A stretch of 37,368 bases of DNA from a virus: positions 1 to 37,368 of the IMG/VR virus record IMGVR_UViG_3300007735_000691. One strand, written 5' to 3'. The translations under genes were made by a program, and so were the position numbers. Under the pieces are notes generated by a model. That model was not told the DNA's origin. It searched no databases and saw nothing but the letters and a program-made list of their open reading frames with translations. Shown here one piece after another: positions 2,656 through 24,718 of this stretch; within the stretch, counting starts at the first letter, position 1; each line of letters begins with the position of its first letter.

Positions 2656-4628
2656 TTGCGGCGGCGGGTCTTGCTGGCCTTTGCCTTACGCCCACGCTTC
2701 GCGGCGGTGGTCTTGCGACCCTTCTTTGCGTGCAGTTCGCCGCGCCGCTTCATGGATAGCGCGATAGCCACGGCCTGATCCTGCGGGTAACCCTCGTCGC
2801 GCAGTAGCGCGATCTTGCGGCTCACGGCATCGTCCTTCGCGGCGTTCGCGTCCTTGCCTTCGGCGCGGTCGAGTTCCTTGTCCTTGCGCTTGGCCCACGC
2901 CTTGCCGGGGTCACCGCCCCACAGCAGCCACGCGATGTACCCCGCCGAATCCTCGCCCCAACCCTCGCCCTGCTTGTCCACCTCGTGCCGTGCGAAATAT
3001 GAGTGCATTCTCCTTACGGTGGACGGCGAGAGCGTCTTGCGGTTCGACAGGTCGCGCGCGCGAGCCACGCCGACCTCCGTGCCGCCCCTGCCGTGCTTCT
3101 TCCGCAGTTCCAGCCCGCGACGGGCCGCGCTCGCCATCTCCTCGGTCGGAGTCAAATCGACATCCGACAGCGCGAACTTGTCCTTGCCGAACGGTGTCGG
3201 CTCGTCGCCCTCCGGCTCGCTCTCCGGCCCCATCGGGGGCAGATCCAGCCCCGGCATCCCGCCCATGCCGCCCTCGGCGGGAGCCTGAAGCACCGACTCG
3301 TCATCCTCCGGCTCGGCCAGTCCAAGCACCTTGCGAGCCTCGCGCTCGGACACGCGGCCACCCAACTTCGTGAAGGCTTCGATGGCCTTCATGTACTCGT
3401 CGGGGTTCGGCTTGCTCACGCTGAACGAGAACTGCGGTGGCGTACCGTCATCGCCGAAGTTGAAGCGATAGAGCGGCGTGACGATTTCGCGCGTGATCGT
3501 TTCGGCCAGCGCGTTGGCGACATAGGTCATCTGCCGATTGAGCGTCTGCGCGTGCTGGTCGCCAATGCTTGAACCGAGGCCCGTCGAAACGGCCTGCGAA
3601 CTGCCCGTCTGACCAAGGATCACTTCCTTGATGTTCTCGGTAAGATACTCCACCATCTTTGCGAACGCTTCGGCATTGCCGCCGTTCGGCTCAAGGATCT
3701 TGATGTCGTAGCCCGCGTCCGTGCCGTCGCCGTTGCGGGGAATCAGAACCGAGACATCGCCGAGAAGGTTCTGCATGGCCGATTCCATGTCGGACTTCGC
3801 GGCATCGTTCCCGACCGGGTAGTTGCCGATGCGGATGCCCATGCTGTACCGCTCGATATAGGTCGCCCAATTCTGTAGCGCGGCCTGCTTCAGCGACCAG
3901 TAGTACCACACGAGGTCGCGCATACCGCGACCGAGGTAGGCGTTCTCGGCCTCGTAGGGATCGTCAAAGTCAACGCCCTGCGGCTGGAAGGTGTGAAGTG
4001 CAATCGTGCTGCGCTGCTCGTCATCCAGCGGCAGGACGCGGCTATCCCACCCAATGACCGTGCCGTTGATCTTGTCCGTGTCCGGGGCCGCACCGCCGAT
4101 GGTCTGCGTGTAGTAGCGCGGGCCGACCTTGAGGCCGAGTTGGCCGAGTTCGGTCATGGTCAGGCTGTCGCCGTGGATCGGCAACCAGTCCCGCATATAG
4201 ACCGTTTCGCCGTGCTTGCCGAACACCATGTTCACCGCCGAACGCCCGTACCAAAGCGCATCCAGCAGATGCCGCATCAGGTCGGTGAATCGCGGGGTGT
4301 TCTTCAAGAGTTTCTCAATGAACGCGGCCTGCTCGGTTGCGTCCTCGTCGCCCTGCATATCGGCGGGGCATTGCACGGCCCACTCGCTGCAAGCGACCGA
4401 CAGTTGCAGCATGGTGAGCGGCCCCATGATGTCGGGGTCGTAGCGCATCTGCCGCTGGAGGTTCCGATCCTTGCGGAACGCCAGCGAACCCTGCCGGAGA
4501 ATCTTGTTGACCGACAGGTAGTAAGAACGCTGCATCTCCACCGGGGTGACGAGTGCCTGAAACACGGGTGCTGCTCGCACCATGTCTGCGCCCTGCGTGG
4601 TAGTTGCTTCGCTCATGTTCTCGTTCAT
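2652..4628 (-). CDS. portal protein, DUF935/Mu gp29-like, with C-terminal extension
   Basis: This 658-aa protein forms the dodecameric DNA gate of the head. The core (about residues 30-430) has the DUF935 pattern: RQMRYDPDIMGPL, LMRHLLDALWYGRSAVNMVF, then LEPNGGNAEAFAKMVEYLTE and KEVILGQTGSS...GSSIGDQHAQ, and finally ITREIVTPLYRFNFG. After it come an acidic Pro/Gly linker and two unexpected segments. One contains TEVGVARARDLSNRKTLSP...RRMHSYFARHE...AWLLWGGDPGKAWA, the other KIALLRDEGYPQDQAVAIA, and the protein ends in a Lys/Arg-rich tail. I start it at 4628, where ATG overlaps the terminase stop as ATGA; an in-frame ATG at 4652 would add eight residues. Confidence 0.94.
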   Translation of the reverse strand: MNENMSEATTTQGADMVRAAPVFQALVTPVEMQRSYYLSVNKILRQGSLAFRKDRNLQRQMRYDPDIMGPLTMLQLSVACSEWAVQCPADMQGDEDATEQAAFIEKLLKNTPRFTDLMRHLLDALWYGRSAVNMVFGKHGETVYMRDWLPIHGDSLTMTELGQLGLKVGPRYYTQTIGGAAPDTDKINGTVIGWDSRVLPLDDEQRSTIALHTFQPQGVDFDDPYEAENAYLGRGMRDLVWYYWSLKQAALQNWATYIERYSMGIRIGNYPVGNDAAKSDMESAMQNLLGDVSVLIPRNGDGTDAGYDIKILEPNGGNAEAFAKMVEYLTENIKEVILGQTGSSQAVSTGLGSSIGDQHAQTLNRQMTYVANALAETITREIVTPLYRFNFGDDGTPPQFSFSVSKPNPDEYMKAIEAFTKLGGRVSEREARKVLGLAEPEDDESVLQAPAEGGMGGMPGLDLPPMGPESEPEGDEPTPFGKDKFALSDVDLTPTEEMASAARRGLELRKKHGRGGTEVGVARARDLSNRKTLSPSTVRRMHSYFARHEVDKQGEGWGEDSAGYIAWLLWGGDPGKAWAKRKDKELDRAEGKDANAAKDDAVSRKIALLRDEGYPQDQAVAIALSMKRRGELHAKKGRKTTAAKRGRKAKASKTRRRK

Positions 4629-11241: not shown

Positions 11242-11403
11242 TCACTCCTCGGGGTTTGCGTCGCTCATTGTATCGGCCTTGCCGTCATGCTTCGCCAGTT
11301 CCGCTCGGAGCCGTTTGATCTCCGCAGCGGCTTCCAGCGCGATGCCGTAGCCGTATGCCTGCCACAGTCCCTCCAGCCGGGAAACAAGGTCGCGGTCGGT
11401 CAT
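11242..11403 (-). CDS. array protein 8: small helical protein (53 aa)
   Basis: This is the last gene of the small-gene array. The product MTDRDLVSRLEGLWQAYGYG... contains a helix ALEAAAEIKRLRAELAKHDG with the EAA-x-EI-x-RLR pattern found in other members. It has lost the C-terminal W-D-C-F-K-E-N-T peptide and ends DANPEE. Its ATG overlaps the stop of the previous member (ATGA), and its Shine-Dalgarno AGGAG lies within that gene's final codons. Function is unknown. Confidence 0.7.
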   Translation of the reverse strand: MTDRDLVSRLEGLWQAYGYGIALEAAAEIKRLRAELAKHDGKADTMSDANPEE

Positions 11404-11633
11404 GGCTTCTCCTTGAAGCAGTCCCAACCACGCCGCTCGGCTTCAAGCAATGCGCCTCCGTGCGTTTCGCTATCCAACTCGCACGCCTCACGCCTCGCCT
11501 CGTCGCGCTCTTTCTCAAGTTCACGGCACTTTTCGGTCAGAAGATTGTTTTGATACCGCGCATTCTCCAGTTCCTCGGAGAGCCTAAACCGCTCCGACAT
11601 CGCAGGATGTGGATTTGGTGTTGCATCAGTCAT
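11400..11633 (-). CDS. array protein 7: coiled-coil protein ending WDCFKEKP (77 aa)
   Basis: The product begins MTDATPNPHPAM. It then forms a long charged helix: RLSEELENARYQNNLLTEK, followed by CRELEKERDEARREACELD. It ends ERRGWDCFKEKP. The coiled coil with E-R-D-E-A-R-R is shared with neighbouring members. The final codons encode the Shine-Dalgarno site of the next gene. I start at 11633, behind AGAGGAAAACACCA; the upstream frame is a shadow of the preceding gene. Role unknown; small soluble coiled-coil proteins in phage accessory regions often bind host proteins. Confidence 0.75.
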   Translation of the reverse strand: MTDATPNPHPAMSERFRLSEELENARYQNNLLTEKCRELEKERDEARREACELDSETHGGALLEAERRGWDCFKEKP

Positions 11634-11652
11634 TGGTGTTTTCCTCTTTGAA

Positions 11653-11889
11653 TCAGTCGTTTGAGCCATAGCAATCCCAACCCCAATCTCGCATGACAAC
11701 GACGGGGTTGGCATAGAACTTGTCGTCGTATAGGCTCTGATTGATTTTTGCCTGCTTTTCACAGGCGGTTCGCCTTGCTTCGTCACGCTCTTTGCGGAGC
11801 CGATCAATCGCATCGGCGGCTGCGTTGCGAATATGTGGCTCAAGTTCTGTGGGCAGACGGAGCATGGTTACGATAAATGAATCAGTCAT
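11653..11889 (-). CDS. array protein 6: coiled-coil protein ending WDCYGSND (78 aa)
   Basis: The protein starts MTDSFIVTMLRLPTELEPHI and has the shared helix AADAIDRLRKERDEARRTACE. It ends DWGWDCYGSND, a variant of the common C-terminal peptide. A stop codon cuts the peptide short. The following untranslated bases still read as F-K-E-E-N-T-N-D if translated, so the ribosome-site module survives outside the gene. The start at 11889 overlaps the previous gene by eight bases and has AAGGAG upstream. Function unknown. Confidence 0.75.
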   Translation of the reverse strand: MTDSFIVTMLRLPTELEPHIRNAAADAIDRLRKERDEARRTACEKQAKINQSLYDDKFYANPVVVMRDWGWDCYGSND

Positions 11890-12202
11890 TAGTGTTCTCC
11901 TTGAAGCAGTCACATCCCCTTCGCTTTGCTTCCATATGCGGATCAGCCATCGTCGGAAGGTGTTCGGCCTCGTTGTTGCACACCTCTCGCCTCGCCTCGT
12001 CGCGCTCGTCCATCATGCGGCGCATCTCATTGCAAATGCATGAGTAGTCACGGCGCAGCCGCTCAATCTCCTTGATGGCACACTCAATGTAGTAAGCAGC
12101 AGTAGCAGGGGCATCGAAAGTGTCTGCACCGCTGTCCCGAATGGTTGCGGCAATCTGCTGAAGGCGGGGGATGGTGTTGAAGTTGGTGGTGGGGTCAGTC
12201 AT
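11882..12202 (-). CDS. array protein 5: coiled-coil protein ending CDCFKENTND (106 aa)
   Basis: One of the two longest members (106 aa). MTDPTTNFNTIPRLQQIAAT opens a helical domain; YYIECAIKEIERLRRDYSCI and MMDERDEARREVCNNEAEH follow, then the end KRRGCDCFKENTND. It contains six Cys residues in total, spaced through the second half. The start at 12202 lies within the last codons of the previous gene (ATGACTGA overlap), with AAGGAG inside the K-E codons. No catalytic motif is visible. Confidence 0.75.
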   Translation of the reverse strand: MTDPTTNFNTIPRLQQIAATIRDSGADTFDAPATAAYYIECAIKEIERLRRDYSCICNEMRRMMDERDEARREVCNNEAEHLPTMADPHMEAKRRGCDCFKENTND

Positions 12203-12398
12203 TGGTGTTCTCCTTGAAGTTCTTGTAGCACTCCCAACCAAAACGCAGCCGTTCCATTTCCTCCGTGACATCCACCAAATGAGATCGCAGGCACTCAATC
12301 AGGTGAGTTCCCTCCGCGTTGGTGCTGCTCAAGCCACGAGTTGCTTCAAGAATCTGCCTGCTTTTCTGTTCGTAGTTGCCACGAATGAACTCAAACAT
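12195..12398 (-). CDS. array protein 4: small helical protein ending FKENTND (67 aa)
   Basis: The product MFEFIRGNYEQKSRQILEAT... is helical and ends MERLRFGWECYKNFKENTND. Compared with its relatives the C-terminal peptide has three extra residues (WECYKNFKENTND), yet the DNA still provides AAGGAG and the same eight-base overlap with the next start. This suggests the ribosome-site part is under tighter constraint than the peptide. ATG at 12398 follows AAGGAGAACACGG. Function unknown. Confidence 0.72.
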   Translation of the reverse strand: MFEFIRGNYEQKSRQILEATRGLSSTNAEGTHLIECLRSHLVDVTEEMERLRFGWECYKNFKENTND

Positions 12399-12621
12399 CC
12401 GTGTTCTCCTTGAAACAGTCCCATCCGCGTCGCTTGGCTTCGCGCTTCTTGTCACTCTCATTCATACGAAGCCCAGTTTCGTTCATGCTGCACACCTCCC
12501 GCCTCGCCTGGTCGCGCTCCGACCGAAGCCGTTCGATTTCATCGGCGGCTTCGCGGCATATTTCACCGTGCGGAATGCAAGTGCAGTCTCGAAGTCGCCT
12601 AACGAGTTCGGTGTCGTTCAT
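12391..12621 (-). CDS. array protein 3: coiled-coil protein ending WDCFKENTDV (76 aa)
   Basis: MNDTELVRRLRDCTC opens the protein. EICREAADEIERLRSERDQ forms the conserved coiled coil, QARREVCSMN follows, and the protein ends KRRGWDCFKENTDV. It resembles array protein 8 at its start (DTELVRRLRD against DRDLVSRLEG). The start at 12621 overlaps the membrane-protein gene by 23 bp, with AGGGA seven bases upstream. This is the clearest full-length member of the family in the window. Function unknown. Confidence 0.77.
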   Translation of the reverse strand: MNDTELVRRLRDCTCIPHGEICREAADEIERLRSERDQARREVCSMNETGLRMNESDKKREAKRRGWDCFKENTDV

Positions 12622-12802
12622 GCAATTCCCTTTGCTCTTGTCGGAAGGTTATTCGCATAGCGAGCCACACGGCAAGCAGCACGATTGTCGCGGCGATTAC
12701 CAAGTTCGCGGCGGTCGGATCAAAAAGCGGTTCGCCTTGAATGCTGGCCGGGCGTTCTCCGTGCCGCATCGTAATGTACGGATTGACGGGCGGCGTACTC
12801 AC
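12599..12802 (-). CDS. array protein 2: small membrane protein (67 aa)
   Basis: A GTG start at 12802 overlaps the previous stop (GTGA) and has AAGGAG eight bases upstream inside the codons of the preceding K-E-N. The product has a polar N-terminus (MSTPPVNPYITMRHG), one membrane span at about residues 33-55 (ANLVIAATIVLLAVWLAM), then a basic cytoplasmic-type tail RQEQRELHERHRTR. It lacks the coiled coil and the C-F-K-E-N-T end, so it is a different gene inserted in the array. It could be a membrane-acting host-takeover or superinfection-exclusion protein; this is speculation. Confidence 0.72.
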   Translation of the reverse strand: MSTPPVNPYITMRHGERPASIQGEPLFDPTAANLVIAATIVLLAVWLAMRITFRQEQRELHERHRTR

Positions 12803-13179
12803 GGCGTGTTCTCCTTGAAGCAGTCCCATCCCAGTCGTTGAGCGATTCCCTCTGCACCTCTTGCACCTTTCCACCCGAATGGGTGACCTTCAACCTCCAA
12901 CAGTTCTTCACACAACCTTCGCCTCGCCTCGTCGCGCTCGGCGCGCACGGTTTCGATTTCCGCGACGAGCAGCGCGTTGCGCTTGGCGAGCCGTTCGGCC
13001 TCGGCCCGTTCCGTGTCTCGCTCCTGCGCGTAATGCTCGGCCATCTCGTTTGCGACCTCAAGCATTCCGAGCAGTTTCTTCACCTCGTCGGCTGCTTCAT
13101 CCAAGATGTTGGGGCTTCCAACGGTCGCCCTGACGCGATCCGATGCGAGCCGAAGTGCGTTGATGATGTCCTCGCTCAT
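12799..13179 (-). CDS. array protein 1: long coiled-coil protein ending WDCFKENTP (126 aa)
   Basis: First and largest array gene. MSEDIINALRLASDRVRATV leads into DEAADEVKKLLGMLEVANEM, then a continuous coiled coil of about 60 residues with AERLAKRNALLVAEIETV and RAERDEARRRLCEELLEV, and the end AQRLGWDCFKENTP. The start at 13179 overlaps the HTH gene stop (ATGA) behind AAGGAGCAGGAGC. It establishes the pattern found in the smaller genes: EAADE helix, E-R-D-E-A-R-R, Cys, then W-D-C-F-K-E-N. Function unknown. Confidence 0.77.
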   Translation of the reverse strand: MSEDIINALRLASDRVRATVGSPNILDEAADEVKKLLGMLEVANEMAEHYAQERDTERAEAERLAKRNALLVAEIETVRAERDEARRRLCEELLEVEGHPFGWKGARGAEGIAQRLGWDCFKENTP

Positions 13180-13481
13180 GCTCCTGCTCCTTCGCATTCA
13201 CCAAGAAGAATCTGAATCGCTGCGAGACTAATACGCTGCTTTCCGGTCGCAACGAGCGACAGGTATGTAGGACTCAATCCGGTGCGCCTTGAAACATCCC
13301 GAAGGCTTTGCCCGCGCTTCGCGAGTTCGATAGCCCGTGGCCCGTGATCCGCCAGCACGACCTCTCGGTACGCCTCGTCCTGCGCAAGTCGTTGCACAAC
13401 CTTGGCGAGCGCGAGTGTTTCCTTGGGCGCGTTGCGATTGATGGTCACGGGAACGGATCGAAGGATGTTTCGCTGCATCAT
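13176..13481 (-). CDS. XRE-type HTH DNA-binding protein (101 aa)
   Basis: The C-terminal half is a Cro/C1-type helix-turn-helix: AIELAKRGQSLRDVSRRTGL then SPTYLSLVATGKQRISLAAI (residues 50-89). The N-terminal 45 residues are helical and may dimerise. The start is one of two adjacent ATGs (13481 or 13478) behind CAGGAGACACC; 13481 overlaps the previous stop. It could bind the palindrome in the divergent control region at 18444-18463, or regulate the array it leads. No integrase is present, so a lysogeny repressor is less likely than an early regulator. Confidence 0.83.
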   Translation of the reverse strand: MMQRNILRSVPVTINRNAPKETLALAKVVQRLAQDEAYREVVLADHGPRAIELAKRGQSLRDVSRRTGLSPTYLSLVATGKQRISLAAIQILLGECEGAGA

Positions 13482-13936: not shown

Positions 13937-14709
13937 GGTGTCTCCACGGGGTCAAGGTATCGACCCTGCCCAAGCCAAGTCGCCGGGTGCGGGATGAACT
14001 TCGGGTCGGTTAGTTTGTGCTGCTTTGCGAGCGCGTCGATCCGCTCCTCCATCCAAATCAAGGCATCGTGCGGCTCGTCATGCTCGAAGTCCTCCATGAC
14101 CTCGCGCACGGCCTTGTCGAGCAGGGTCATGGCCTTCTTCCGGCCGACCTTGCGCGGGAACCGCTGCCACAGCGCGTCGAGCGCGGCTTGCGGGATCGTG
14201 GCTCGCCTGTTCGGCCTCGGATCATCTGACGGTGAAACGGGCTCGACGGCGGAGCCGTTGAGCGTATCTCTGACCTTGCTTTCGCTGTCGGTTCCGATCT
14301 CGCTTTCGATTTCGTTATCGCTTTCGTTTTCGATGGCATCGTTCTGCATTGCGTCCGCATTGCGTCCGCTATGCCACCGCATTGCTGCGGCATTGCGAGC
14401 CTGCTTGCGCTTCCGGTCGCCTGCCGCAAGGCTCTTTGCCCGGATCTCCTCGCAGCGGGGATTCCGAAGCAGCCCGTCCGGGCCGAGGAGGAACTTGCGC
14501 TTGATGCGATCCCAGTGCGCGACCGTGCCCGGTGCGATCTCCTCCAGCACTTGCGGATCGGCATTTAGACCGCCGTTGCTGTACTGCTCGCAGAGCAGAT
14601 ACAGATACGCGAGCGCAGCTTCAGCGGGCCACCCCCTCGTAGACCACGCGAAGCGTTGGTAGTAGAACGGCATGAAACCCATCGCGCCGCTCTCGGTTTG
14701 TACACTCAC
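13933..14709 (-). CDS. DUF1376-like replication initiation protein (258 aa)
   Basis: The N-terminal domain (residues 10-95) matches DUF1376: FMPFYYQRFAWSTRGWPAEA, then YLYLLCEQYSNGGLNAD, then a winged-helix-like part ending in FLLGPDGLLRNPRCEE. A low-complexity linker of about 70 residues follows (ENESDNEIESEIGTDSES). The C-terminal domain has ALWQRFPRKVGRKKAM and FIPHPATWLGQGRYLD, the tail found in phage replication proteins. It probably marks the origin and recruits host replication proteins. The start is GTG 14709 with AGGAGG six bases upstream. The encoded asparagine/glutamate linker DNA is a plausible site for an internal origin, but I see no iterons. Confidence 0.87.
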   Translation of the reverse strand: MSVQTESGAMGFMPFYYQRFAWSTRGWPAEAALAYLYLLCEQYSNGGLNADPQVLEEIAPGTVAHWDRIKRKFLLGPDGLLRNPRCEEIRAKSLAAGDRKRKQARNAAAMRWHSGRNADAMQNDAIENESDNEIESEIGTDSESKVRDTLNGSAVEPVSPSDDPRPNRRATIPQAALDALWQRFPRKVGRKKAMTLLDKAVREVMEDFEHDEPHDALIWMEERIDALAKQHKLTDPKFIPHPATWLGQGRYLDPVETP

Positions 14710-17075: not shown

Positions 17076-17969
17076 TCAGAACGGGATCTCGTCCTCGGCA
17101 GGCACCGTGGCCGCCTCGGGCTGCGTGGATTCTACCGGGAGCCGCAGGCCGTACAGCGTCCAACCGTACTGCCCTTCTTGGATGAACGCCTCGACCTGCT
17201 CGCCGCCCATCGCGTCCTGTGCGGCCTGCATCAAGGTCTGGTCGAAGCACGAGGCCCACTGCTCGCCCTGCGCCGTGCCGAACAGAATTGGCCACCTCTG
17301 CCCACCCTTGGCGGTCGGCTTGCCCTGTCCGACCTTCTGCACCGTCAATCCCTGCCGCCATGTGCAGTCCTTGGCGGGCCGGGAGGCCATGACCTCGCCA
17401 AACGCGCTATGAGCCGCCGGGGCGCGTTCCGGGGCCAGGGCCGGGGTCGGAGCCGCCTTCGGGGCCGGAGCGGCCTGTGGGGCATCCTGCGCGGCCTGAC
17501 GCGGTGCGGGGGCCGGACGGGCCGGAGCCGGGGTCGCCTTGCGCGGCTCGAAGGTGCGGTCATCGCGCCGATCCATCTCGGCCTCGTCCTCACGGGGAAC
17601 GAGCAGGAGGTCGCGGAGGTAGTAGCCGAGGCTAGAGGTCAACGCGCCCGCAAGAGCCTTGTCGATCGGCCTGCCCTTTTCGGGGATCGCAGGCCAAGTC
17701 ACCTCGTCGTTCGCCGTCTCGCCGCTAGCTGCGTGGGTGAGGATGAAGGTGCTAGTGACGATCCCCCCCTCGGGCGTGCCGTCGAACTTCCACCCCGCCC
17801 GGCGCACAGCCAGTCCCGCGCCGTGCAGCACCTCGCGGCACGCGCCGATCATCCCTTCCGCGCTGACATAGGAGTAGTGGTGGAAGCTATTCTTCGCGTC
17901 CTTTGCCACGCTCGGAAGAGCGCGTTGCGCCGCGAGGAGTGCGGTCGCGAGTGTCTCGGTCTTGCTCAT
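17076..17969 (-). CDS. erf: ERF single-strand annealing protein with SSB-like C-terminus
   Basis: Residues 1-130 match the ERF superfamily: TALLAAQRALPSVAKDAKN, FHHYSYVSAEGMIGACREVL, THAASGETANDEV and TSSLGYYLRDLLLVPRED. ERF proteins anneal single strands and drive recombination. A Pro/Ala-rich linker (140-187) joins a second domain (about 200-278) with CTWRQGLTVQKVGQGKP and GWTLYGLRLPVES that could be an OB fold. The last seven residues AEDEIPF are close to the SSB tip (D-D-D-I-P-F) that docks host repair proteins. The start has AGGAGAAACGAGACACCC upstream. It probably works with RusA and Gp157. Confidence 0.9.
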   Translation of the reverse strand: MSKTETLATALLAAQRALPSVAKDAKNSFHHYSYVSAEGMIGACREVLHGAGLAVRRAGWKFDGTPEGGIVTSTFILTHAASGETANDEVTWPAIPEKGRPIDKALAGALTSSLGYYLRDLLLVPREDEAEMDRRDDRTFEPRKATPAPARPAPAPRQAAQDAPQAAPAPKAAPTPALAPERAPAAHSAFGEVMASRPAKDCTWRQGLTVQKVGQGKPTAKGGQRWPILFGTAQGEQWASCFDQTLMQAAQDAMGGEQVEAFIQEGQYGWTLYGLRLPVESTQPEAATVPAEDEIPF

Positions 17970-22916: not shown

Positions 22917-23468
22917 CTAACTGACCGCAGACCACTTTCCGATAGGGCAGGACTCGCTCGGCAGGCGCACCTTCAGGGCCGTGAAGCACCCGCACTTGCG
23001 GCACTTCGAGCCTGTCCAGTTCTCGCAGCCCTTGCAGATCGCAAGCCGCTCCTGCGCCATCGGGCTGTCGGGAGTCACGAGCGCGGCCATCGCCTTCGGC
23101 GCAGCCTTCACCATGTCCCACAAGCCCGCGCCCTCTCGCTCGACCCGCTCGGCCTCGGCCTGCTCCTGCGCGGCCTGCGCGTCCCGCTTCTCCTGCTCGG
23201 CGCGGTTGAACGCCTCGGCATCAGGCTCTCCACGCTCGTACTCCACCGCCGGAACGGCGTATCGGATGATTGGAACCGCCACGCCCGTGCGCTCGTCAGG
23301 CACCACGCCATCGGCTGCGATGGCAGCGCGATCCTCTTCCCAGTAGGCAGGGTTGGTCTGTTGCTGCTCGTAGTGCCGCTGCTTGATCGCCGCGCTCGCC
23401 AGTGCGATCTCGCGTGCCATCGTGTAGGAGTACTTCACCCGGAGGCTGTTCGCGTTGAATGGTGTCAT
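22917..23468 (-). CDS. Cys-cluster tail-region protein (183 aa)
   Basis: I start at ATG 23468, which overlaps the previous stop as ATGA. The N-terminal two thirds are helical with a long charged coiled coil (AEAFNRAEQEKRDAQAAQEQ). The C-terminus has a compact metal-site-like cluster: ICKGCENWTGSKCRKCGCFT, then SESCPIGKW. Six Cys in C-x2-C...C-x2-C-x-C...C-P spacing recall the small Cys-rich end motif found in phage tail genes, likely a zinc or iron site. The role may be in tail tip assembly; function is not established. Confidence 0.78.
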   Translation of the reverse strand: MTPFNANSLRVKYSYTMAREIALASAAIKQRHYEQQQTNPAYWEEDRAAIAADGVVPDERTGVAVPIIRYAVPAVEYERGEPDAEAFNRAEQEKRDAQAAQEQAEAERVEREGAGLWDMVKAAPKAMAALVTPDSPMAQERLAICKGCENWTGSKCRKCGCFTALKVRLPSESCPIGKWSAVS

Positions 23469-24718
23469 GGTGTGCAGGATCGATGCGCTCGGTCGTACCC
23501 CACGCAGACGCTCGTGGAGTAGTCGAGTTCCATCGTATACGAGGGCACATCGTTCGGCTGCCACACCCCGTCGATCTTCGTCCCGGTATGCGGAATGCGA
23601 ATGATCATCTTCGACATCTTGTTGTCGCAGCAAAGCCTGTTCCGGGATTGTGTGAAGCAGCGCACTCCGTTCGATACAGTCAGAGACTCGCCGTTACAGG
23701 TGTCGGTGATTCGCTCCACGATCTCGTCCGCGTTGCAGGCGATGTCGACAGTGGTCTCCACCGTGTTCGATCCGAAACAGTCGGTGTCGGTTTCGATTCT
23801 CGTCACGCCCAACCGCTTGCCCGCATCGGCGCAGCTCGGCGCGTTCAGCGCGAGCGTGTCGCAGTAGTTGTTCGAGAAGTTGAGCGGGCCGAGGGTGACC
23901 GTTTCGGTAACGCTCGCATCCGTCTTGATGCTCGTGACGAGTTCGAACCACACCTTGATGACACAGGTCGGGTTGTAGGTTGTCGGTCGCTGACAGGGAC
24001 TCGGCTGCGTGTTGTTCCCGCCCGGTCGCGGGCCGACTGGAGGGATGACGGGAGGGCCGACACCACCACCTCCGCCGCCTGTGCCCGGTCTCACACACCT
24101 TTGAAGGTCTTCCGCAGTTGCCGTACTACATGGGCCAACTTTGACCAGTCCGACTACGGGAGGCCCGTTTAGTTCAGGACATCCGTTCAGAACATCTGTG
24201 GGCTGATTGTTCATACAAGCGCACACAATGCAACGGGTGCCGCAAGCCTCTCTACTCCAATTCAAATACCCCTGCTGACTACCATACAGTCGGGACAGAG
24301 CGAAGCACTGGCATTTCGTCACATTGTCCGTGCAGTTGCACGCACTACAGCATGATCCGGTTTCGCTATCGCAGGGAATGTTGCACTCACTGCTTGTACA
24401 AGGCCCGGCAACATTCAACCACCCACCCTGATATCCGGTCTCACACGCAGGGCGTGAAAACACATGAGCGGACTGCGTGTATCCAATCTTCAGGAATGCG
24501 CCCGATAGATCGAACTTGCTACAGCAGTAGCAACGGAGACACGAATCGGGACAAGTCGTTGCTGCCCCCTGCCATTGACCGCCGATGCGACGGCATTCGC
24601 ATTCCGTTGTCTGTTCGCAGCCCGGAGGCGTGTTCAGGTCGCCGCGTGTGCAGCAAGCCCCGAGCGGCCCGTTATCGCACCAGTCGGCATCGCAGCAGCA
24701 GTTTCGATCCGCGCTCAT
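23465..24718 (-). CDS. very cysteine-rich virion protein (417 aa)
   Basis: About 43 of 417 residues are Cys. The first half is a string of Cys-dense segments (NCCCDADWC, GACCTRGDLNTPPGC, TECECRRIGGQWQG, GSCCSACNC, CIVCACMNN). A glycine-proline linker GTGGGGGGVGPPVIPP follows, then a beta-rich half with spaced Cys. The G-A-C-C...C...G-G-x-W-x-G...C pattern resembles small disulfide modules seen in planctomycete and marine phage proteins, as I remember them. It is likely an extracellular, disulfide-bonded tail-tip or fibre protein. Its start overlaps the 106-aa gene. Confidence 0.8.
   Translation of the reverse strand: MSADRNCCCDADWCDNGPLGACCTRGDLNTPPGCEQTTECECRRIGGQWQGAATTCPDSCLRCYCCSKFDLSGAFLKIGYTQSAHVFSRPACETGYQGGWLNVAGPCTSSECNIPCDSETGSCCSACNCTDNVTKCQCFALSRLYGSQQGYLNWSREACGTRCIVCACMNNQPTDVLNGCPELNGPPVVGLVKVGPCSTATAEDLQRCVRPGTGGGGGGVGPPVIPPVGPRPGGNNTQPSPCQRPTTYNPTCVIKVWFELVTSIKTDASVTETVTLGPLNFSNNYCDTLALNAPSCADAGKRLGVTRIETDTDCFGSNTVETTVDIACNADEIVERITDTCNGESLTVSNGVRCFTQSRNRLCCDNKMSKMIIRIPHTGTKIDGVWQPNDVPSYTMELDYSTSVCVGYDRAHRSCTP

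Follow-up and report, generated by a model that had tools for sequence, protein, structure and literature searches.

Short conserved boundary sequences in the nin region and elsewhere in lambdoid phages have been proposed as a route to mosaic genomes by homologous recombination (work cited in PMC3029335). A different kind of short repeat was described in cluster K mycobacteriophages, where Start-Associated Sequences, 13 bp long and containing AGGAG, lie just upstream of the starts of different gene families; according to that description they are conserved beyond rRNA pairing and sometimes include the upstream stop codon (PMC3203893). In Island3, the DNA encoding the last 18 residues is common to the tandem genes 67 and 68, and this was interpreted as a recombination site of some 50 bp by which a gene was gained or lost (PMC3029335). 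Among recombinases, phage D3 Erf and Red beta are about equally good at recombining diverged DNA (PMC3945230). It has been debated for decades if mosaic phage genomes are the product of homologous recombination at short boundaries or of illegitimate joints that selection then sorts; part of the difficulty is that boundary sequences tend to be hard to find.

Here we analyzed an array of small genes in an IMG/VR virus record of 37,368 bases (the window), which encodes a Mu-type portal, terminase, C-5 cytosine methylase, Gp157 and an ERF recombinase. We think it likely that the array consists of small genes joined by short coding boundary sequences, which couple translation and also serve as homology handles for the swapping of modules.

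Organization of the Array

After the genes were re-called, all array genes (A to H) were placed on the minus strand, a detail absent from the first-pass annotation. The array is flanked by a gene for a helix-turn-helix protein on one side and a set of small genes on the other. The helix-turn-helix gene (13176-13481) lies just upstream of gene A, and its relative in contig L007 (after position 4207) lies downstream of a WDCF junction. Two further features of the window were recorded in passing: an 11 bp repeat, TCCGCATTGCG, in four imperfect copies within a DUF1376-like gene (14343-14397), and a 417-residue protein very rich in cysteine, encoded on the minus strand of the structural half (23465-24718).

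The first-pass annotation had counted six junctions at which the upstream gene ends, or once ended, in a WDCFKENT-type peptide, and this count held, with five coding junctions (A/B, C/D, D/E, E/F and G/H) and a decayed one (F/G). Gene A (12799-13179, 126 aa) ends in WDCFKENTP, and junction A/B (12799-12828) encodes W-D-C-F-K-E-N-T-P-stop, with AAGGAG 8 bp 5' of the GTG of gene B and a 4 bp overlap of start and stop. Gene B (12599-12802, 67 aa) is unrelated to the WDCF proteins and likely contains one membrane helix, judging from inspection of its sequence. The B/C boundary is not a WDCF-type junction; the start of gene C lacks AAGGAG and overlaps gene B by 23 bp. Gene C (12391-12621, 76 aa, ending WDCFKENTDV), gene D (12195-12398, 67 aa, ending WECYKNFKENTND) and gene E (11882-12202, 106 aa, ending CDCFKENTND) are followed by junctions C/D (12391-12423), D/E (12195-12236) and E/F (11882-11914), respectively, each with AAGGAG 7 bp 5' of the next ATG and an 8 bp overlap. 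Gene F (11653-11889, 78 aa) ends in WDCYGSND, and at the decayed junction F/G (11634-11679) the coding end is lost; behind the end of gene F the junction DNA persists out of frame as TTCAAAGAGGAAAACACCAATG, and TTCAAAGAGGAAAACACC remains in the 19 bp gap 5' of gene G. Gene G (11400-11633, 77 aa) ends in WDCFKEKP, and junction G/H (11400-11426) has AAGGAG 5 bp 5' of the ATG of gene H, with a 4 bp overlap. The last gene of the array, gene H (11242-11403, 53 aa), encodes an N-module-like protein, DLVSRLE..AAAEIKRLRAEL.

At the five coding junctions the peptide codons AAG-GAG, within the coding end TTCAAGGAG.., serve as the Shine-Dalgarno site of the next gene, as had been proposed; this dual use of the same bases is a direct observation. 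The overlaps of 4 bp (A/B and G/H) and 8 bp (C/D, D/E and E/F) likewise agreed with the initial reading, while the claimed spacing of seven or eight bases applied to four of the five junctions and failed at G/H. Allowing up to 3 mismatches, TTCAAGGAGAACACC occurs in 8 copies in the window vs. 0.65 expected, and none of 100 shuffles reached 8.

The array genes also share internal ERDEARR pieces, as the first-pass annotation had noted. We located these in genes A (12919-12939), C (12499-12519, in the variant form ERDQARR), E (11987-12007), F (11770-11790) and G (11490-11510), all on the minus strand. Below, N module and C module refer to the parts of a WDCF gene on either side of this block.

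Conservation of the Junction at the DNA Level

Among WDCF-type ORFs of IMG/VR contigs, 161 of 169 had a Shine-Dalgarno match, and the next start lay at −4 in 107 and at −8 in 22. Free variation of codons under a conserved peptide would have spoken against a DNA-level role, and it was not what we found: in 129 W(D/E)C(F/Y)KE endings the lysine codon was AAG in 129 (69% elsewhere in the same ORFs) and the glutamate codon was GAG in 125 (59% elsewhere). The phenylalanine codon of WDCF was TTC in 97% of cases vs. 54% elsewhere. Where the KE residues are displaced, as in WDCFPQE, WDCFKQE and WDCYTQE, the AGGAGG shifts along with them and is still kept. The plain GAG excess in KE was dropped as stand-alone evidence, as the glutamates of ERDEARR are likewise GAG-rich.

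Beyond what the first-pass annotation had described as a coiled-coil piece, ERDEARR itself is, as read from codons and alignments, a second DNA-conserved exchange point. The block opens with the codons GAG, CGC, GAC, GAG, GCG and AGG, each at 71-92%. The arginine codon AGG stands at 71% in this block and makes up only 11% of arginines elsewhere, so that the conservation is not just codon preference. The codons of AADEIERL (GCC GCC GAC GAG ATC GAA CGG CTG) form a third DNA-conserved block of the WDCF genes, with 29 exact copies counted, and AADEIERLR may be a third exchange point.

A scan made without requiring WDCF recovered a sister junction, the 18-mer AAGGAGGACGGCAAGTGA, in at least 120 stretches. 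Among 124 distinct copies, 119 lie at a gene end in the frame KEDGK-stop, and 118 of these 119 open a GTG gene. The gene ends concerned follow WDCF in 80 cases and other endings in about 39, most of the latter belonging to unrelated proteins, one of them a 40-residue membrane peptide. The junction therefore also joins genes that lack the WDCF motif, which goes further than the initial reading. When the middle glycine codon of AAGGAGGACGGCAAGTGA was left free, GGC occupied it in about half of the 80 stretches listed and no other triplet (of 64) exceeded 5; the pooled GGC count of 124 includes loci retrieved by the exact AAGGAGGACGGCAAGTGA search. Contigs L259, L010 and L246 carry tandem arrays linked by KEDGK junctions, with shared cassettes in differing order, and in L259 (2189-2431) the 40-residue membrane cassette (DFGIGVIVGIVLT..) is duplicated in tandem, with the junction bounding each copy.

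These data bear on the idea that WDCFKE and ERDEARR simply serve a protein function, such as that of a C-terminal recognition tag, and that the shared ending reflects protein conservation only. W-D-C is invariant in the aligned family while its Asp and Cys codons vary more, and synonymously, so the peptide is probably constrained too. However, the K and E codons are fixed, AGGAGG is retained when KE is displaced, and about a third of the KEDGK-junction genes are non-WDCF. In addition, 41 of 190 ERDEARR proteins have no W[DE]C[FY] near the end, and most of these still have a ribosome site there. A protein motif as the sole cause is therefore disfavored, and we regard it as quite improbable.

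Variant arrangements of the motif were also observed. In L010 (1056-1083) and L026 (3411-3440) the tail is doubled as GWDCFDTGV-WDC(Y/F)KE, looking as though another junction end had been appended, and the tail of gene D in the window (WECYKN-FKENT) may be similar to these. WDCFKE is internal to longer proteins in L201 (5386-5406, with another ERDEAR segment after it), L032, L115, L125 and L159; these are fused units in which the junction start has been lost.

Exchange of Modules Between Contigs

When junction neighborhoods were compared between contigs, homology was seen to start or stop at the block running from WDCFKE to the next start, or at ERDEARR. The array in the window is itself composed of such pieces. 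The C-terminal part of gene A is common to L112 (90%) and L205 (76%) from ERDEARR through the junction, with the L112 homology spanning 12943 to 12809. Gene C combines the N module of L006 (12621-12489) with a C module common to L005, L007 and L312, for which homology starts at 12553, 12519 and 12541, respectively, and runs in each case down to about 12400; the L007 homology begins exactly at the first base of the ERDQARR block. Gene E is a chimera joined at ERDEARR, with the N module of L307, L310 and L025 (L307/L310 homology stopping at 11989) and the C module of L029 and L024 (homology from 12007). The N module of gene F is 93% shared with L307, the homology stopping at 11771. The C module of gene G belongs to a cluster that occurs behind six different N modules, and homology to many contigs begins at the ERDEARR of gene G, at 11510 or 11511. 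At junction G/H, L123 matches the window with 95% identity from position 11429 on, and the sequence immediately upstream is unrelated.

The proposal that the array genes are exchangeable cassettes is borne out by this concentration of breakpoints at the junction and by gene D, a complete junction-to-junction cassette (12423-12200) that is 87% shared with L026. In L307 an F-type N module comes immediately after the D cassette, with no gene E between them. Conservation of the same genes in the same order among relatives would have told against exchange; instead, modules that share at least 80% of their DNA lose every trace of similarity at the junction.

Over whole loci, HSP ends at 189 motif sites numbered 46 (left) and 78 (right), vs. 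about 4.5 each under a shift null. Per motif site this corresponds to 0.24 left and 0.41 right vs. 0.015 and 0.066 at other start sites, ratios of 16x and 6x that are approximate, as the control start sites include false starts, which dilute the control rate. Among 158 proteins, the N module was shared in 124 pairs and the C module in 88, and both were shared in only 9. We then measured linkage as the share of pairs that keep DNA similarity between adjacent 30-base windows in 221 units. Within modules, 78-99% of pairs stayed similar, whereas similarity was kept in only 4-9% of pairs across the junction (C module to downstream gene) and in 11-15% across ERDEARR (N to C module). One control within the N module was weaker (0.56), suggesting that some exchange occurs elsewhere too, perhaps at the DNA-conserved AADEIERLR that lies there.

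Direct cases of C-module swapping were found in L029, L069 and L264, which are syntenic and 92-95% identical over 5.2-5.5 kb; their chief difference is about 60 bp between ERDEARR and WDCFKE (units L029:4004-4159 and L069:1696-1851, and on the minus strand of L264). Their C modules read ..RNEANHLPTMADPHREARR, ..GWQGLDTGSTPRNTATV and ..IAHRVFVSGGLRPAELAHL, while the ERDEARR codons are identical and GAGGACGGCAAGTGA is the same in all three. Where the same N module and the same downstream gene occurred together, the C module differed in 6 of 8 pairs.

Phage genomes are usually viewed as having mosaic joints that fall at gene boundaries and lack shared sequence (PMC3029335), and illegitimate recombination could in principle account for the pattern here if joins were random, survivors were limited to gene ends or to a permissive coiled coil, and the junction were kept as a good ribosome site with overlapping stop and start. 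The junction does contain a near-ideal Shine-Dalgarno site. A ribosome site, however, leaves unexplained the fixed GGC spacer, the codons of WDCF and the rare AGG in ERDEARR, and the density of breakpoints per site exceeds that at other starts in the same contigs 6- to 16-fold (an approximate ratio, as false starts are included). We consider illegitimate joining with selection unlikely.

Distribution Among Phages

Well over 100 IMG/VR contigs carry the WDCFKE-type ending. Gene C as query returned 80 loci, and a codon-neutral search for the GWDCFKE pattern gave at least 119 stretches; the 21 bp form of the window junction gave only 12, some of them apparently unrelated. A motif scan of 257 billion bases of genomes yielded 14 matches, of which only two (L201 and L205, both metagenome-assembled genomes) had family genes. 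Among 50,697 deposited phage records there was no GWDCFKE ending, no relative of gene C or of the membrane cassette was found, and the junction DNA matched at chance level only. Mu-type portals were present in 9 of 49 related contigs, ERF in 9 and RecT in 8, and the carrier phages seem to be an uncultured and mixed group.

All related sequences are metagenome contigs, many of the 49 being fragments, and the shared blocks are short, which raises the concern that assemblers fused unrelated phages at shared short repeats. Blocks of 18-30 bp, however, fall short of the k-mer lengths by which most assemblies are resolved. Frames also stay open across the joins, one unit recurs in the separate contigs L222 and L242, and for L029, L069 and L264, which are otherwise syntenic, an artefact would require two wrong joins per contig within 100 bp. 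An assembly artefact is thus very improbable.

Tandem cassettes with a repeated junction also resemble integron arrays, and cassettes might be moved by site-specific recombination of the integron or shufflon type. Against this, a search for tyrosine recombinases (PF00589) was positive in 14 of 14 control genomes and in 0 of the 49 related contigs; the 18-30 bp junction has no inverted repeat discernible by eye; and an internal exchange point at ERDEARR is ill-suited to gene cassettes. A site-specific system appears extremely improbable, and integron-like movement was rejected given that no tyrosine integrase was found in the 49 contigs.

Proposed Mechanism

The boundary DNA encodes the last residues of the upstream gene (W-D-C-F-K-E and a few more) and also holds the Shine-Dalgarno site and spacer of the next. 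Since the next start overlaps the stop at that spacing, downstream translation is probably coupled to upstream translation. Since the boundary DNA hardly varies from site to site, it could work as a homology handle, and a crossover between two boundary sites would join any upstream gene in frame to any downstream gene with a working ribosome site. The ERDEARR codons would provide a second handle inside the WDCF genes, so that N modules, C modules and following genes could assort independently.

The crossovers may come from homologous recombination or single-strand annealing by phage recombinases such as ERF and RecT, and phage annealing recombinases probably make the module swaps. The candidate enzyme in the window is an ERF-superfamily single-strand annealing recombinase (17076-17969, minus strand; PF04404, E-value 5.6e-9). 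Its link to the exchanges is only plausible, as ERF occurs in the window and in 9 of the 49 related contigs, and RecT in 8 others. Several points weigh against the handle reading: known annealing recombinases were found in only about a third of these contigs, many of which are fragmentary; identity of 18 to about 30 bp is near or below the lengths usual for efficient annealing recombination; and ERDEARR may be favored partly as a tolerant coiled-coil fusion point and not as DNA. Relaxed, Rad52-like recombination (PMC3945230) is a candidate mechanism here, although it was demonstrated with longer homologies than these handles.

Scans of the WDCF proteins against Pfam, PHROGs and NCBIfam gave no consistent family match, only scattered weak coiled-coil matches. 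The AlphaFold2 model of gene C is helical (helices 3-11, 19-48 and 55-65; mean pLDDT 80.7, pTM 0.56), and a viral fold search with it returned nothing at E < 0.001, the best match being an uncharacterized protein of an uncultured phage. It is a fair guess that the small WDCF proteins have an accessory role and that the C module determines what they bind, in which case variation of the C module would alter their binding. More tentatively, the system may perform homology-driven combinatorial diversification, in which hypervariable C modules of 20-30 residues, carried by tiny helical proteins, are swapped between two DNA-fixed handles, changing binding. If true, diversification would proceed in frame and translation-ready without a dedicated recombinase or reverse transcriptase, and related phages could rapidly alter the binding targets of these proteins, such as those in the host or in defence.

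Comparison With Known Systems

The closest known systems are the lambdoid boundary sequences, the Start-Associated Sequences and the repeat of Island3 gp67/68, and we found none in which a coding end, a ribosome site and an internal handle come together with so many breakpoints. Like the junction described here, Start-Associated Sequences are repeats directly 5' of starts with a Shine-Dalgarno core; in contrast to it, their description mentions neither a breakpoint or peptide-end role nor an internal handle (PMC3203893). The junction consensus TGGGACTGCTTCAAGGAG with its spacer does not match the Start-Associated Sequence consensus GGGATAGGAGCCC, so the junction is placed like a Start-Associated Sequence without being one. 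Island3 represents one case in one phage, whereas here there are hundreds of sites and the ribosome site lies inside the repeat.

The lambdoid boundary sequences, as they are cited in PMC3029335, resemble the present junctions in being short DNA shared at gene ends and proposed as a substrate for recombination. Here too the same short DNA ends unrelated, exchangeable genes, and the homology of different genomes begins or ends there. One short sequence makes any two genes compatible by supplying a peptide end, a stop, a ribosome site and a start. With boundaries that are obvious and numerous, and with sharp breakpoints and minimal pairs differing chiefly by one module, the question of how mosaics originate becomes testable. 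Unlike the lambdoid boundaries as so cited, the boundary in these arrays is coding, includes the next gene's ribosome site, is repeated at most of the joins in an array and is paired with an internal handle.
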